Of a DNA stretch of 64,000 nt, positions 15,301 through 59,623 are shown one piece after another. The translations under genes and the position numbers were made by a program. The DNA comes from Oceanococcus sp. HetDA_MAG_MS8 (GTDB lineage: Bacteria > Pseudomonadota > Gammaproteobacteria > Nevskiales > Oceanococcaceae). Location of the stretch: NCBI GenBank assembly GCA_019192445.1, contig JAHCMK010000007.1, forward strand, positions 62,001 to 126,000. The letters are read 5' to 3'. The notes under the pieces were generated by a model. That model saw nothing but the letters and a program-made list of their open reading frames with translations, was not told where the DNA came from and searched no databases. Each line of letters begins with the position of its first letter. The stretch's first letter is position 1.

Positions 15301-16827
15301 TCAAATGAGGGCGGCATCTTCCTCGCGCATGTCCGGAACCTCATGCACTTGTTCGCCTTGTTCGTTTCGTGTTTCTAAGTGCACTGGGTATCCCCACAAG
15401 GATTCCACATGGCCGAGCACTACTTCGGCCTCTTTGCTCAGGGGACGGCCGCGGCGTTGGAAGTGGGTGAGTGTGAGACTGCGGTCACCCTTGTGATCAA
15501 AGCGAGTGATCTGAATGTCCGGCACCATAGACTCACGCGCGTACTGGCGCGAAAGCAGCTGGCGTAATTTTCGATAGCCTCCCTCGTTGTGGATGGCTTC
15601 TACATGCAAATACTCTTCGTCCTCGCGATGGTCGCCAATGGCGAAGAGATGGAGCTCACGCATCAGCCGTGGACTGAGAAACTGGGCGATAAACGACTCA
15701 TCTTTAAATTGGCGCATGGCAAAATCCAGCACCTTGCGCCAATCACCGCCTGCAATGTCGGGGAAGAAACTGCGATCTTCAGCGGTGGGCGATTCGCAGA
15801 TACGACGCAGCTCCGAGAACATGCCAAAGCCCAGTGCGTAGGGGTTGATGCCTGAGTAGCCGCGTTGATCGAAGCCTGGTTGATAGACCACATTGGTGTG
15901 ATTCGCCAGCACCTCGAGTAGGCAGCCATCATCCACATGGCCCTCATCGTATAGACGGTTCATGAGGGTGTAATGCCAGAACGAGGCCCACCCTTCGTTC
16001 ATGACCTTAGTCTGGCCTTGGGGGTAAAAATACTGCGCCAACTTGCGCACGATGCGCACCAGCTCTCGCTGCCAAGGCTCTAAGGCTGGAGAGTGCTTTT
16101 CAATGAAGTACAGCAGGTTCTCTTGGGGCTCCTGAGGCAGAGGGTTGTGGGTGGCGAGATCATCCTGGGCTTCAGGTTGGCGTTTCTTCGGCAGCGTGCG
16201 CCAGATGTCGTCAAAGTTGGCCCAGTCATGCGCGGCCCGGTCTGCTTGCCGCGCCGCCTCTGCTTCTGCGGATAGGGGGCGAGGGTGGTGGTATCGATCC
16301 ACCCCGTGGTGCATCAGAGCATGGGCTGCGTCTAAAACAGCTTCTACGTTCTCCGGGCCATAGCGTTCTTCGCAATCCATTACGTAACGCCGGGCAAAAA
16401 CCATGTAGTCGATGATGGCGTCGGCCTGGGTCCACTGCCGGAATAAATAATTACCTTTGAAAAAGCTGTTGTGTCCGTAGGCGGCATGGGCGATGACCAA
16501 AGCCTGCATCGCTAAGGTGTTTTCCTCCATCAGATAGCTAATGCAGGGGTTGGAATTGATCACAATTTCGTAAGCGAGCCCGGCGCGGCCCCGTTTGTAC
16601 TGTTGCTCGTGGCCAATAAAGGCCTTGCCAAAACTCCAGTGGGGATAGTGGATGGGTAAGCCCAGTGAGGCATATGCATCGAGCATTTGCTCGGAGGCAA
16701 TGACCTCGATTTGATTGGGGTAGCAATCTAGGCCGAAGTGGTTTTGAGCCACATCGCCAATGGTCTTATCCAGTTTCTCCAGCAGAGGGAAGGTCCAGTC
16801 GGAGCCATGGATTAAGCGTTGACTCAT
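15301..16827 (-). CDS. SpoVR family protein
   Basis: A 508-residue SpoVR/YcgB-family protein. Typical stretches include PNQIEVIASEQMLDAY, YPHWSFGKAF, YEIVINSNPCISYLMEEN and NEGWASFWHY. The family is named for a Bacillus sporulation gene but is widespread in non-sporing proteobacteria, where it travels with prkA and yeaH; its biochemical role is unknown. The start overlaps the yeaH stop by 4 bp, so the two are translated together. It is the last gene of the prkA-yeaH-spoVR operon and is probably expressed under nutrient stress with it. Confidence 0.93.
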   Translation of the reverse strand: MSQRLIHGSDWTFPLLEKLDKTIGDVAQNHFGLDCYPNQIEVIASEQMLDAYASLGLPIHYPHWSFGKAFIGHEQQYKRGRAGLAYEIVINSNPCISYLMEENTLAMQALVIAHAAYGHNSFFKGNYLFRQWTQADAIIDYMVFARRYVMDCEERYGPENVEAVLDAAHALMHHGVDRYHHPRPLSAEAEAARQADRAAHDWANFDDIWRTLPKKRQPEAQDDLATHNPLPQEPQENLLYFIEKHSPALEPWQRELVRIVRKLAQYFYPQGQTKVMNEGWASFWHYTLMNRLYDEGHVDDGCLLEVLANHTNVVYQPGFDQRGYSGINPYALGFGMFSELRRICESPTAEDRSFFPDIAGGDWRKVLDFAMRQFKDESFIAQFLSPRLMRELHLFAIGDHREDEEYLHVEAIHNEGGYRKLRQLLSRQYARESMVPDIQITRFDHKGDRSLTLTHFQRRGRPLSKEAEVVLGHVESLWGYPVHLETRNEQGEQVHEVPDMREEDAALI

Positions 16828-18041
16828 GCCGAGGCCTCCTGAGAAAACAGCGAGCGTAAAACCGGGTAGATCTCGTTGCGATGTCGAGCCTCAGCCATCG
16901 CGAAATGCGGGTGGTCGATACGCGCATAGGCACCGGCGAGGGGGCTGGTTCGTCCGGAGGTGTTACCCACTTCCAAATACGCGAAATAGCGCAGTCGATC
17001 GAGCAGGCCTTCTAAGCAGCTGCGACTTTTCTCAATGTCGGCCCCAAAGGCATCCCCATCGCTGGCTTGGGCGGCGTACAGATTCCAGCCTTGCCCATAG
17101 CGCTCTTGAATGATGTCGTCCAGCAGAGTCAGGGCGGTATTGACAACCGTGCCTCCTGATTTGGGATCGTGAAAGAAGGTGTCTTCGTCAACTTCTTCGG
17201 CGTCGGAGGTGTGGCGGATGAAGATGAGTTCTACGGCTTCGTACTTACGGCTGAGGAATAAATACAGCAAAGTGAAGAAGCGTTTGGCCAAGTCCTTGCG
17301 GGCCTCATCCATCGAGGCAGATACGTCCATTAAGCAGAACATCGCCGCCCGTGTGACGGGCTCGGCACGCATGGCCCGATGCACATAGCGCAGGTCAAAG
17401 TCATCCACCCAAGGAACAGCCGCGATACGCCGCTCCAAATCTGCAATGTCGCTGGCGGGTGCGCCGGCTTCTTGCAGTTGGCGCAGCTCTTCTTTGAGGG
17501 GGTTTTGTACGGCCATGCGCCGCGCCATGGCATTGCGCAGCGAACGTACGACGGCCAAATTGGCAGGGGTGCCTTGGGTGGCAAAACCGGCCCGCCGTGG
17601 TTTGTTCTCGGTGATGGGTCCCAGCTGAGTGCGCGCCAGGCGGGGAAGTTCCAGATCATCGAAGAACAAGGACATAAACTCGTCCCGCGATAAGGTAAAC
17701 AGGAACTCGTCTACGGTGTCCTCTCCATCACTGGCATCACCGTCGCCTTGGCCCTGACCTTGGCTGGGTGGGCGCGGAATTTTGTCGCCGGTTTCAAACT
17801 CGCGATTCCCAGGGTGAACGACTTCGCGGTCACCTCCCGAGCCATAGCTGAACTGGGGCTCGGAAATGTCTTTGGCGGGCAGTTTGACTTTGGCTCCGCG
17901 CTCGAAGTCCCCCATTTTTCGCTTGCTGACAATGTCATCCAAGGAGCGACGAATTTGTTTCTTGTAGCGCCGCAGAAAGCGCACACGGTTCGCTGTGCTT
18001 TTGCGTCGATCGTTCAGGCGGCGGTCAATAAAGGTACTCAT
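16824..18041 (-). CDS. YeaH/YhbH family protein (DUF444)
   Basis: A 405-residue DUF444 protein like E. coli YeaH. The N-terminus is highly basic (FIDRRLNDRRKSTANRVRFL), a Gly/Asp-rich linker lies around residues 95-115, and the C-terminal half is a VWA-like domain with FCLMDVSASMDEARKD, a MIDAS-type DxSxS motif. In known operons it is paired with the PrkA kinase and SpoVR and is linked to stress and stationary-phase survival. The 425-bp gap to prkA is unusually long for this operon and contains a structured repeat (18258-18312), so expression relative to prkA may be attenuated. Confidence 0.92.
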   Translation of the reverse strand: MSTFIDRRLNDRRKSTANRVRFLRRYKKQIRRSLDDIVSKRKMGDFERGAKVKLPAKDISEPQFSYGSGGDREVVHPGNREFETGDKIPRPPSQGQGQGDGDASDGEDTVDEFLFTLSRDEFMSLFFDDLELPRLARTQLGPITENKPRRAGFATQGTPANLAVVRSLRNAMARRMAVQNPLKEELRQLQEAGAPASDIADLERRIAAVPWVDDFDLRYVHRAMRAEPVTRAAMFCLMDVSASMDEARKDLAKRFFTLLYLFLSRKYEAVELIFIRHTSDAEEVDEDTFFHDPKSGGTVVNTALTLLDDIIQERYGQGWNLYAAQASDGDAFGADIEKSRSCLEGLLDRLRYFAYLEVGNTSGRTSPLAGAYARIDHPHFAMAEARHRNEIYPVLRSLFSQEASA

Positions 18042-18466
18042 GACACTATCCTGTCGCGATGGCTCGACCGATGAAGCGGCGTCTTGCGCCGGCCATCAGT
18101 CCGCCCGGCTGCGTCCGGTACTTCCCGTTGTAGGAAGACAAAGATTTTTTTGTACCTGCAAAAGTCGTTCGCGTCGAAGCTGCATGACTCCGGCGAGGGC
18201 TGCAGGAGCCACCCAGCACGGGCACACGGTCGGGCGTATGTCGGCGACTCTGCGGGGCTTTGGGAGTCGGCATCCTGCCTCCGCCCAAAGCGGCGGGCGT
18301 CCATGCCCGCCGCCCTGCGGGCCAAATCCTCCGTGTCGCCGCGCCCTCCCTACAGTGCCCGTGCTGGGTCACGCCTGCTGTAAACGTCTGCGTGCAGTTG
18401 TGCGCTGGCGCGCAACAACTGATTGCCGCATTGCAGCTTTCCCGGTCGATGGCGAGCATCGAGACC
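18042..18466. other. 425-bp gap in the prkA operon with structured repeat
   Basis: No gene is visible between prkA and yeaH. The stretch is GC-rich and full of short palindromes; the clearest is the double hairpin at 18258-18312. Open frames on both strands lack start signals and recognisable protein character. Confidence 0.5.
18258..18312 (+). repeat. Double-hairpin repeat, copy 1
   Basis: Hairpin 1 (18258-18290) has outer stem CTTTGGG/CCCAAAG, an A-G mismatch, a shorter imperfect inner stem and the loop ATCCT. Hairpin 2 (18291-18312) has the perfect stem CGGCGGGC/GCCCGCCG around the loop GTCCAT. The same order, loops and mismatch occur at 59131-59185 and, inverted, at 59373-59427, with different stem sequences. 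Confidence 0.6.
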
Positions 18467-20389
18467 TCAGGCGCTTTTACGAACGCGTAAATACCATTCG
18501 CAGAGCAACCGCACCTGTTTCTCGGTGTAGCCTTTTTCCACCATGCGGGCCACGAAGCTCTCATGCTTGCGTGCCTCATCGGCCGTGGCCTTGGTGTTGA
18601 AGGAGATCACCGGCAGTAACTCTTCGGTGGATGAGAACATCTTCTTCTCAATCACTTCACGCAGCTTTTCGTAACTGGTCCAGCGTGGATTCTTGCCCTC
18701 GTTATTGGCGCGGGCACGCAGCACGAAGTTCACGATTTCGTTGCGGAAGTCTTTGGGATTGGCAATGCCTGCGGGCTTCTCGATTTTCTCCAGCTCGGTG
18801 TTCAGCTGAGCGCGATCGAAGATGGCACCGGTATCGGGGTCGCGGTAATCCTCGTCCTGGATCCAGTAGTCGGCGAAGGTGACATAGCGGTCGAAGATGT
18901 TTTGACCGTACTCGGTATAGCTCTCCAAGTAGGCAGTCTGTATTTCTTTGCCAATGAACTCCGCGTATTTGGCGGCGAGATGCCCTTTAATGAAATCCAG
19001 CCACTGGCGCTGCAGATCGTCAGGGAGCTGCTCACGCAGGATGCGCTGTTCGAGGATATACATCAGGTGGACGGGGTTGGCGGCCACTTCTTCAGAGTCG
19101 TAGTTGAAGGTGGCCGAGAGCACTTTGAAGGCAAAACGGGTCGAAGAACCACTCATGCCCTCATCCACACCGGCGAAGTCGCGATACTCCTGGATGGATT
19201 TTGCGCTGGGCTCCGTATCCTTGAGATTTTCACCGTCGTAAACCCGCATTTTGGCGACCATCGACGAGTTTTCTGGCTCCACCAGTCGGGTCAGTACGGA
19301 CCACTGCGCCAACATATTCAGCGTGCCAGGGGCGCATGGGGCCTCGGCCAGCGAACTCTTGGACAGCAGCTTTTTGTAGATCTTCTCTTCTTCGGAGACC
19401 CGCAGGCAGTACGGCACTTTGACGATGTACACCCGATCAAGAAAAGCCTCGTTGCTGCGATTATTTCTAAAGGCCTGCCACTCCGACTCGTTACTGTGCG
19501 CCAGCACAATGCCCTGGAAGGGAATCGCGCCCAATCCCTCGGTGCCTTTGTAGTTAGCTTCTTGGGTGGCCGTCAGCAGGGGGTGCAGCATCTTGATGGG
19601 AGCTTTAAACATCTCCACGAATTCAAGGAGGCCTTGGTTAGCCAGACACAACCCTCCGGAGTAGGCATAGGCATCCGGATCATGCTGGGCGTGTTTTTCC
19701 AGTTGCCGAATGTCGACTTTACCCACCAGGGCGGAAATGTCCTGGTTGTTTTCATCACCAGGTTCGGTTTTGGCAATGGCAATTTGGCGCAGCACGCTGG
19801 GCTGTAATCGCACTACGGTGAACTGGCTGAGGTCACCATCAAATTCTTCCAGGCGTTTCACCGCCCAGGGCGAGGCAATGCCCCCGAGGGCGCGGCGCGG
19901 GATGCCGTACTCTTCTTCTAGCTGGGGGCCATCGCGGTCAGGGTTAAAAAGCCCTAAGGGTGATTCATTGATGGGGGAACCTTTGATGGCATAGATGGGA
20001 TAGGTTTCCATCAAAGACTTGAGGCGTTCGGCAAGCGAGCTTTTACCGCCGCCAACAGGGCCCAGTAAGTACAGAATCTGTTTACGTTCTTCCAGGCCCT
20101 GAGCCGCATGCCGGAAGTAGGCCACGATCTGCTCAATCACATCTTCCAAGCCGAAAAATTCGGCAAAGGCCGGATAGCGGCGGATCACGCGATTGGAGAA
20201 GATGCGGGACAAGCGAGGGTCGGAGCGGGTGTCGATACTTTCGGGCTCGCCAATGGCGGCCAACATGCGTTCGGCTGGGCTGGCCCAGGCTAAAGGGTCC
20301 TGTTTACACAGTTCCAAGTAGTCCGCTAAGGACATCTCCTCTTCGCGATGCGCTTGAAAGTTCTTTTGGTATTCGGCCAGTAAGGACAT
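18467..20389 (-). CDS. prkA: PrkA family serine protein kinase
   Basis: A 640-residue homologue of PrkA/YeaG. It has an AAA-type Walker A, LLGPVGGGKSSLAERLKSLM, near residue 95, and long blocks typical of the family (IAKTEPGDENNQDISALVGK, FVEMFKAPIKMLHPLLTATQ). The PrkA C-terminal domain ends VRLLCEWYLRVRKS, as in E. coli YeaG. The family is described as a serine kinase and/or AAA+ protein; in proteobacteria it is a starvation-induced cytoplasmic protein. The ATG at 20389 is chosen over one 12 codons upstream because AGGAG lies 7 bases before it and the protein then aligns with YeaG from its first residues. A sigma-54 promoter lies 75 bp upstream. Confidence 0.95.
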   Translation of the reverse strand: MSLLAEYQKNFQAHREEEMSLADYLELCKQDPLAWASPAERMLAAIGEPESIDTRSDPRLSRIFSNRVIRRYPAFAEFFGLEDVIEQIVAYFRHAAQGLEERKQILYLLGPVGGGKSSLAERLKSLMETYPIYAIKGSPINESPLGLFNPDRDGPQLEEEYGIPRRALGGIASPWAVKRLEEFDGDLSQFTVVRLQPSVLRQIAIAKTEPGDENNQDISALVGKVDIRQLEKHAQHDPDAYAYSGGLCLANQGLLEFVEMFKAPIKMLHPLLTATQEANYKGTEGLGAIPFQGIVLAHSNESEWQAFRNNRSNEAFLDRVYIVKVPYCLRVSEEEKIYKKLLSKSSLAEAPCAPGTLNMLAQWSVLTRLVEPENSSMVAKMRVYDGENLKDTEPSAKSIQEYRDFAGVDEGMSGSSTRFAFKVLSATFNYDSEEVAANPVHLMYILEQRILREQLPDDLQRQWLDFIKGHLAAKYAEFIGKEIQTAYLESYTEYGQNIFDRYVTFADYWIQDEDYRDPDTGAIFDRAQLNTELEKIEKPAGIANPKDFRNEIVNFVLRARANNEGKNPRWTSYEKLREVIEKKMFSSTEELLPVISFNTKATADEARKHESFVARMVEKGYTEKQVRLLCEWYLRVRKSA

Positions 20390-20463
20390 AACTAACTCCT
20401 GCGCTGAGGTGATCGTCCGGGCCACCGCGCCGCGCCGCGCGGCGGCTCCTTTGAGTTAATTGC

Positions 20464-56820: not shown

Positions 56821-57162
56821 TTAGCCGGGCGGCCATTGCAGGTCGCGCCCACCGATCAGGTGCAGGTGCAAATGGAATACCGTTTGCCCGGCACCTTCAC
56901 CGTTGTTGATGACCACCCTAAACGCATCGGCGTAGCCCAGCTCGGCGGCGATCTTGGGGGCGATTTTGAGCAAGTGTCCCAGTACCGGCGTGTCGTCGTC
57001 GCTGGCTTCGGCCAACATCGGGATGGGTTTGCGGGGCACCAGCAACACATGCATCGGAGCTTGGGGGTTGATATCGCGGAAGGCCACGCAGTGATCGTCG
57101 CGATAAACGATATCTGCCGGGATCTCAGCTGCAATAATTTTTTCGAACAAGGTTTGGCTCAT
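56821..57162 (-). CDS. HIT family (histidine triad) nucleotide-binding protein
   Basis: A 113-residue HIT protein of the HinT type. It has SQTLFEKIIAAEIPADIVYR, FRDINPQAPMHVLLVPRK, and the triad FHLHLHLIGG. HinT enzymes hydrolyse nucleoside phosphoramidates such as lysyl-AMP. The ATG at 57162 has AGGAG 7 bases upstream, so a 6-residue-longer start is rejected. It converges with the M23 gene and diverges from the GT39 gene, a monocistronic position. Confidence 0.94.
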   Translation of the reverse strand: MSQTLFEKIIAAEIPADIVYRDDHCVAFRDINPQAPMHVLLVPRKPIPMLAEASDDDTPVLGHLLKIAPKIAAELGYADAFRVVINNGEGAGQTVFHLHLHLIGGRDLQWPPG

Positions 57163-57221
57163 CAATGCACTCCTGATCAATCAGCGAGGAGCATAACGCG
57201 AGGCGCGGGAGAAGATTTGTT

Positions 57222-58895: not shown

Positions 58896-59130
58896 ATTGC
58901 GGTGCCGGTAATGCCGGTGTGCAGCAGTACGGACCAGAAGTAGCCGCTACCGAAGGTATTTCTTCGCGAAGAGTTCCTCGTCAGGCTGAAAAAAAGAGTT
59001 TCTTGCGTTTTAGCGGGAGGATGGATTTGGGCTGCCGACCGCAGCGCGGGAGCGTCTGCCGGCAGAGCTAAGCGCCTGTGTCCTCCGCGCCGCTGCGCGG
59101 TTCCCTCCGGGTCGCGCCGTTATGGGGGGC

Positions 59131-59185
59131 GTCTCGACGCAACGTCCTGTTGCGGCGAGACTCAATCCGGCGTCCTGCCGGATTG
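59131..59185 (+). repeat. Double-hairpin repeat, copy 2
   Basis: Hairpin 1 (59131-59161): GTCTCG, A, CGCAAC, loop GTCCT, GTTGCG, G, CGAGAC. Hairpin 2 (59163-59185): stem CAATCCGGC/GCCGGATTG with loop GTCCT. Same layout as 18258-18312. Confidence 0.65.
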
Positions 59186-59372
59186 TCCCCCGGCACTCTG
59201 CGCCCCTGCGGCGCTCCCCCTCAATCAGGCGCTTAACTGTGCCGCCAGCCGCTTTCGAGCCTTGCCACGCACTGAGGGGGTGGCAGTCGATGTGGGGTTC
59301 GGGGCCGGGGCGCGTTGAGCCGTTGGGGCCGCATTCAGGAGGAGCGCCGCAGGCACCTGGAGCGACTGTGGT

Positions 59373-59427
59373 CAATCGGCCATGGACGGCCGATTGAGGC
59401 TTGCCGCGACAGGACGTCGCGTCAAGC
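59373..59427 (-). repeat. Double-hairpin repeat, copy 3 (inverted)
   Basis: Read leftward: GCTTG, A, CGCGAC, loop GTCCT, GTCGCG, G, CAAGC, then hairpin 2 with stem CAATCGGCC/GGCCGATTG and loop GTCCAT. Against copy 2 the outer stem differs fully and one inner pair changes from A-T to G-C, while loops and the A-G mismatch are kept. Confidence 0.65.
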
Positions 59428-59538
59428 TGGCCACACAAAGCGTAGGGTGCCGGAGGGAACCGCGCAGCGGCGCGGGGGACAGCGGCCCCAACGGACCGAC
59501 CCGCATCGGCGGGCGCCACGGTTAACCAGACTCATTAG

Positions 59539-59573
59539 CAAAAAAAAACCGCAGGACCAGGCATCCTGCGGTT
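59539..59573 (-). terminator. Terminator of the DUF1329 gene
   Basis: AACCGCAGGA and TCCTGCGGTT form a 10-bp stem; an A-run on the left gives the T-run for leftward transcription. Confidence 0.88.
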
Positions 59574-59623
59574 GTGCGGTTTGGACCCGTGCCTCAGTCA
59601 AGCATGGGCCGACGTGATTGCTT

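Follow-up and report, generated by a model that had tools for sequence, protein, structure and literature searches.

The double hairpins of the window (the whole stretch of 64,000 nucleotides analysed, from Oceanococcus sp. HetDA_MAG_MS8) are the cores of a dispersed, amplified, non-coding palindromic repeat. Judged from sequence, the three copies present belong with TwoAYGGAY (RF01731), a named, functionally unexplained RNA family; copy 1 lies below Rfam detection. A CsrA-binding RNA module carried on the repeat is the best guess at its role and a tentative one.

Description of the copies in the window

Copy 1 has its core at 18258..18314 on the minus strand, here the strand with GGA in the loops (GGA strand). 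Loops on this strand are ATGGAC in hairpin 1 and AGGAT in hairpin 2; hairpin 2 contains two extra mismatches. Matched by covariance model R1 at 39.0 bits (E 1.4e-6), without a match in Rfam. The core is enclosed by a palindrome of ~177 bp found by repeat search (18202..18378, minus strand), which has arms of 24 nt (18202-18225 and 18355-18378) with 88% complementarity and is partly conserved in the congener G001.

Copy 2 has its core at 59130..59187, minus GGA strand, with the loop AGGAC in both hairpins. It is the core of an A-type repeat unit, a palindrome of ~210 bp at 59042..59253 (minus strand) delimited by blastn against the own genome. Copy 3, at 59371..59429 on the plus strand, has loops ATGGAC in hairpin 1 and AGGAC in hairpin 2 and is the core of a B-type unit, a palindrome of ~190 bp at 59307..59500 (plus strand) delimited by blastn against the own genome and by RF01731. 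Together the units form an inverted two-unit composite at 59042..59500 (A minus, B plus; no strand of its own) with GGA strands outward; taken whole, it makes an imperfect inverted repeat of 69% over ~400 bp.

Layout on the GGA strand is common to the three copies: hairpin 1, 0-1 nt, then hairpin 2 with a C.T mismatch. On either strand, 198 or more of 200 dinucleotide shuffles fold less well than each of the three stretches (z -3.3 to -6.0), which confirms the double hairpins that a preliminary description had placed there; its loops, its A-G mismatch and the two extra mismatches of copy 1 are all as described. Its extents hold for the double hairpins, but the copies are cores of longer palindromes (~177 bp; ~190-210 bp), and copies 2 and 3, counted separately in it and both real, make up one inverted composite.

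The gathering threshold of RF01731 is 43 bits. Copy 3 (47.9 bits) and copy 2 (44.7 bits) score above it, contrary to the earlier statement that no named family fits; copy 1 is not matched up to E 5. The covariance-model search that had been proposed as a check was run with R1, built from 13 cores, all from other genomes. By default search of the 64-kb window, copies 3 (43.7 bits, E 1.4e-7) and 1 were recovered and copy 2 was missed; copy 2 scored 35.3 bits once filters were off and a 301-base stretch was searched, so that all three copies match. The same 13-core alignment minus its structure yielded one match in the window, of 11.1 bits, to hairpin 1 of copy 1. The detection signal is therefore mostly structural.

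Two further structures were recorded in the window. At 57157-57207 (minus strand) the ROSE_3 thermosensor family is matched at 27.7 bits (threshold 43), probably by chance. At 59547-59573 (minus strand) a strong hairpin resembling an intrinsic terminator, with 11 pairs and then a T run, lies between the repeat and the DUF1329 gene.

Distribution

The own genome (3.53 Mb, 20 contigs) contains at least 20 units: 14 RF01731 matches above cut-off, four A-type units, copy 1 and one unit matched by R1 alone. Among the 14 is the unit of copy 3, and eight span the whole 168-position model. Besides copy 2, A-type units with visible double hairpins occur at C3:230778, C2:295182 and C2:110784. Absence of further copies, named beforehand as telling against the element, was not what was found: both this genome and its relatives carry more of them. 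Cores sit in palindromes of ~180-210 bp. Three B-type units of the own genome (L002, L006, L014) lie inside a larger shared repeat of ~500 bp.

In the order Nevskiales, matches were obtained in 33 of 81 genomes (own included) and 10 of 21 genera, with up to at least 30 per genome, 30 being the number scored. In a sample of the phylum, 32 of 398 genomes (own included) had a match, 28 of them above cut-off, with six candidates scored per genome. Both surveys scored part of the candidates in each genome, so copy numbers are lower bounds. Pseudomonas, Lysobacter, Halothiobacillus, Thioalkalivibrio, Desulfofustis and others were among the matches listed by a one-hairpin sequence scan. For extraction of related units 120 loci were fetched and 80 processed, 31 of these without a unit. 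RF01731 matches at E <= 0.001 number 20 in Pseudomonas protegens FD6, 43 in a Halothiobacillus MAG, 22 in Desulfofustis (2 above cut-off) and 6 in Lysobacter enzymogenes (0 above). Copies are alike within a genome; the best full-length matches in P. protegens reach 88-92%.

In P. protegens FD6 (NZ_CP031396.1, 6.67 Mb) 19 of the 20 RF01731 matches lie within ~0.8 Mb of coordinate 0, at 0.54-0.62 and 5.87-6.49 Mb, with the odd one at 4.66 Mb; perhaps they cluster around the replication origin. In the Myxococcales MAG CSSed165cm_238 a lone hairpin with this GGA loop sequence is repeated in short tandem arrays at a spacing of ~31-42 bp (L219, L221, L232, L242, L250, L256, L264), unlike the double-hairpin units.

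Pairing, loops and stem features

Selection on structure is strongly supported by compensating sequence changes. In 122 distinct sequences, in an alignment fitted to the structure and thereby favouring pairing, 96.7% of cells are paired and 19 of 20 pairs have changed on both sides. Double-changed cells number 772, against 214.7 (sd 17.3) in column shuffles; the covariation score is 0.798, against 0.177. When one arm is slid by 1-3 columns, pairing falls to 31-47%. Compensation is likewise visible by eye in cores from alignments that were not fitted to structure. A MAFFT alignment, in which penta- and hexaloops are out of register, was excluded from the counts. The preliminary description had proposed selection on structure with near-fixed loops and had named mutation of stems without compensation as the contrary outcome; the two-sided changes uphold the former, the structure-fitted alignment being borne in mind, and the latter did not occur.

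C-G closes the loop of one hairpin in 107 and of the other in 108 of 112 distinct cores. The loop code A(N)GGA(N) is nearly fixed, in hexaloop and pentaloop forms. Loops of AYGGAY type are common among cores, but AGGAN, ARGGAN and ACGAN are frequent too. ACGAN pentaloops, which lack GGA, account for 12 hairpin 1 and 7 hairpin 2 loops (19 of 224) in the 112 cores and occur in several genera; ATGAN and AAGAN are absent from this set, the finder of which gave a bonus for A[GC]GAN and ANGGAN loops and accepted one fitting loop as enough. Chance accounts for a few hairpins of the set, some ten having one odd loop. A loop-independent finder placed GGA in or near the loop in 78 of 86 distinct double hairpins. 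In a further set of 176 cores both loops had to fit the pattern, so its loop tallies are no test of loop conservation; within it no core has ACGAN in both loops, and 174 have their two loops 22-24 nt apart. The 94%-identical loci L040 and L170 (genomes G002 and G003) carry an orthologous unit with hairpin 2 loops ACGAT and AGGAT, a recent loop change.

Hairpin 2 almost always has T as the 3' base of its mismatch: 104 of 112 cores and 121 of 122 fitted sequences do. The hairpin 2 stem also holds nearly fixed pairs. Between distant genera stems share little and loops persist.

Mismatch counts and folds were compared between the strands and point in different directions, so that the structured molecule may be RNA or single-stranded DNA. 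On the GGA strand of the 112-core set, G.T and A.C mismatches stand at 9:9 in hairpin 1 and 46:10 in hairpin 2; the model-fitted alignment, which itself leans to G.U, gives 38:13. Minimum-energy folds of ~140 nt for 170 cores (6 without flanks omitted) contain 421 G.U pairs on the GGA strand and 523 on the other; among the groups that differed, the GGA strand is the more stable in 48 of 75.

Copy 1 between prkA and yeaH

Copy 1 lies between prkA (PrkA serine kinase; 18467..20425, minus strand; Pfam PF08298 and PF06798, NCBIfam NF011999) and a DUF444 gene (16824..18041, minus strand; Pfam PF04285), which we take to be yeaH. A spoVR-like gene (15301-16827; Pfam PF04293) follows the latter. The GGA strand of copy 1 is sense for the operon, with prkA upstream and the yeaH-like gene downstream.

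The congener G001 carries a unit in the same gap, matched by R1 at 50.9 bits. Relative to copy 1, three hairpin 2 pairs and one hairpin 1 pair show two-sided changes, one hairpin 1 pair becomes T.G, and GGA is retained in both loops; the two hairpin 2 mismatches of copy 1 are paired in G001. The gap measures 425 nt in the own genome and 369 nt in G001. In five other relatives it measures 101, 21, 55, 38 and 37 nt, the last four after frames with PrkA domains; a yeaH-type gene was found at E <= 1e-60 in 7 of 41 genomes. The presence of the unit and of a long gap in two congeners, against gaps of 21-101 nt in the five relatives, suggests insertion in an ancestor of the genus, after which the unit was probably kept as a structure; this is the only site compared, and by gap lengths, not by exact junction. 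Gene conversion from other copies could also have caused the likeness in the two species.

Arrangement and genomic setting

Two-unit elements in the order have GGA strands outward in 23 of 23 cases. Composites of P. protegens are outward too; those of Halothiobacillus and Lysobacter are inward. Most of the copies examined in Solimonas aquatica belong to a composite of ~700-800 bp consisting of two inverted units, more stem-loops and a terminal palindrome, which ends in CTACG and is clear at 14 of 26 ends. Palindromes of GTAG type occur at the outer ends of the composite in S. aquatica and at its centre in P. protegens.

The 96 elements divide into 33 with convergent, 15 with divergent and 48 with tandem neighbour genes, where gene calls are longest-ORF guesses and 28 contig-edge elements are left out. 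Where a single unit has tandem neighbours, it runs with them in 15 cases and against them in 27; the GGA strand hence shows no preference for the transcript of the adjacent genes.

A search for empty sites in the genus of G015 gave no clean one; the matches stop at the element, and for some of them this is a contig end. A search of plasmids and phages with three elements gave two matches, neither naming a mobiliser: a 4.9-Mb Aeromonas record filed as plasmid and a short Pseudomonas phage record, in which the match adjoins a transposase with HTH_21 and rve domains. A Y1 transposase was considered as the mobiliser and rejected as a general requirement, PF01797 being present in 19 of 33 element-bearing and 35 of 48 other genomes and absent from some of the richest hosts.

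Possible function

If transcribed, a unit would offer two CsrA/RsmA sites, which one CsrA dimer may bridge. Scattered copies would then act as CsrA decoys, and copies inside an operon, such as copy 1 between prkA and yeaH, as cis control sites. Rather doubtful is the wider proposal that a mobile palindromic repeat scatters CsrA/RsmA docking hairpins across many proteobacterial genomes and that some copies, the prkA-yeaH one included, have been recruited as cis control of stress genes.

An A(N)GGAX loop directly on a C-G closing pair is a high-affinity target of RsmE; the rule holds for RsmZ too (PMC4005645). Pairs of sites 10-60 nt from each other are regarded as bound by a single CsrA dimer (PMC4066749). 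The present cores agree with the CsrA/RsmA loop rule in the closing pair (C-G in 107 and 108 of 112) and in most loops, which are A(N)GGAN. Also counted for CsrA are the covariation of the stems, the loop spacing of 22-24 nt, the published proposal for RF01731 (PMC4333381), the sense placement of copy 1 and its retention in the congener with paired stems, against the short gaps of the five relatives. csrA is present in 39 of 39 genomes outside the order with RF01731 matches (some of these below the Rfam cut-off), and within the order in 30 of 33 element-bearing against 35 of 48 element-free genomes, a difference confounded by kinship; the three element-bearing genomes without a csrA match are assemblies 79-91% complete. 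Several features keep the CsrA reading tentative. ACGAN loops count against it because the core loop bases of RsmE targets are described as not replaceable (PMC4005645), and ACGA is absent from the weaker CsrA sites listed in the available part of PMC4066749. In genome G060 (6 contigs, 91% complete) csrA was not found, although its units number at least 10 (one spurious unit dropped) and all 20 of their loops are intact. There is no sense bias, no sigma-70-like promoter was detected in the two composites scanned, and the excess of G.U pairs on the other strand (523 against 421 in ~140-nt folds) also counts against CsrA, as does the near-invariant stem T; CsrA is not known to require this T or the fixed stem pairs of hairpin 2.

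A selfish origin, to which CsrA would be irrelevant, is possible though rather unlikely: the hairpins would be single-stranded DNA structures recognised by a spreading enzyme, as with REP or IS200/IS605-type elements, and the loops and unpaired T would be contacts. Hairpins of IS608 carry a recognised unpaired T, and the near-invariant T opposite the mismatch in hairpin 2 would be a counterpart. Dispersed, patchy occurrence with amplification within genomes, both orientations with inverted composites and no sense bias, and loops left intact where csrA was not found all agree with spread as DNA. Against it, searches for the Y1 transposase PF01797 (E <= 1e-5) came up empty in 14 of 33 element-bearing genomes, the hosts with 30 and 19 matches among them, and two reading frames overlapping composites have no Pfam family. 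Among 43 diverse cores, 6 have the GT(A/G)G head of REP elements (PMC2817692) at the 5' edge; among 168 cores with flanks (8 of 176 without flanks omitted), 42 do. Copy 1, moreover, is fixed at one site in two species with compensating changes, although gene conversion could do likewise.

Improbable is an RNA module that tolerates both A(N)GGA(N) and ACGAN loops and either is bound by a different protein than CsrA or forms a tertiary RNA motif. It would account for tolerance of ACGAN where ATGAN and AAGAN were not seen (the finder favoured A[GC]GAN and ANGGAN and needed one such loop) and for base-specific stem features beyond the loop; but the CsrA/RsmE loop rule fits closely and calls for no new protein, and the ACGAN loops could be damaged sites, no core having this loop twice in the set in which both loops had to fit the pattern. 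Very improbable are transcription terminators or stabilisers of mRNA ends, for which stable hairpins alone would suffice: near-fixed loop bases, fixed loop distance and the near-invariant T would not be required. The structures are indeed very stable, the bias of 33 convergent against 15 divergent settings is as in Pseudomonas repeats (PMC2718517), and the Solimonas composite L107 has 4 terminator-like sites against 0.8 in shuffles. These sites are distinct from the double hairpins: the four in L107 lie beside units, and the one within window positions 58900-59620 is apart from the hairpins.

On the CsrA reading, if true, these repeats would form a concealed sink or wiring layer for a global regulator; on the DNA reading, if true, they would be a hairpin-based mobile system. 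A dispersed, amplified repeat in culturable P. protegens and S. aquatica, together with a copy held in an operon, makes the question answerable by experiment.

Comparison with known systems

A search for literature on CsrA with repetitive extragenic palindromes as a sponge found no paper, and searches on repeats in Burkholderiales and Lysobacter and on RsmA CLIP-seq with repeats gave no paper title naming the present repeat.

Like REP, BIME and REPIN elements, the repeat consists of dispersed extragenic imperfect palindromes and forms inverted pairs. Differs from them in the much larger unit with a loop code, in the head at 6 of 43 cores and in the RAYT not found in 14 of 33 hosts. With CsrB, CsrC, RsmX, RsmY and RsmZ it shares GGA loops closed by C-G and several sites per RNA. 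Differs from these in its many dispersed copies, its extra conserved stem T and its CsrA sites, which are predicted from sequence; scans of two composites detected no sigma-70-like promoter. R178 (101 bp) and R200 (320 bp) of Pseudomonas fluorescens are multi-copy intergenic repeats (PMC2718517); likeness to the present repeat, compared by description, lies in these same properties, and they may be the same element.

TwoAYGGAY is listed from human gut, gammaproteobacteria and Clostridiales (PMC2864571). In the portions of its literature available the family has no proven function and is not described as a dispersed repeat; CsrA binding has been proposed for RF01731 by motif comparison (PMC4333381). 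The present repeat resembles TwoAYGGAY in two adjacent hairpins with AYGGAY-type loops within an outer stem. Differs in that copy 1 has no match to the family, pentaloops and ACGAN loops are common, and the element is a dispersed repeat, often in inverted composites, that reaches Desulfofustis.
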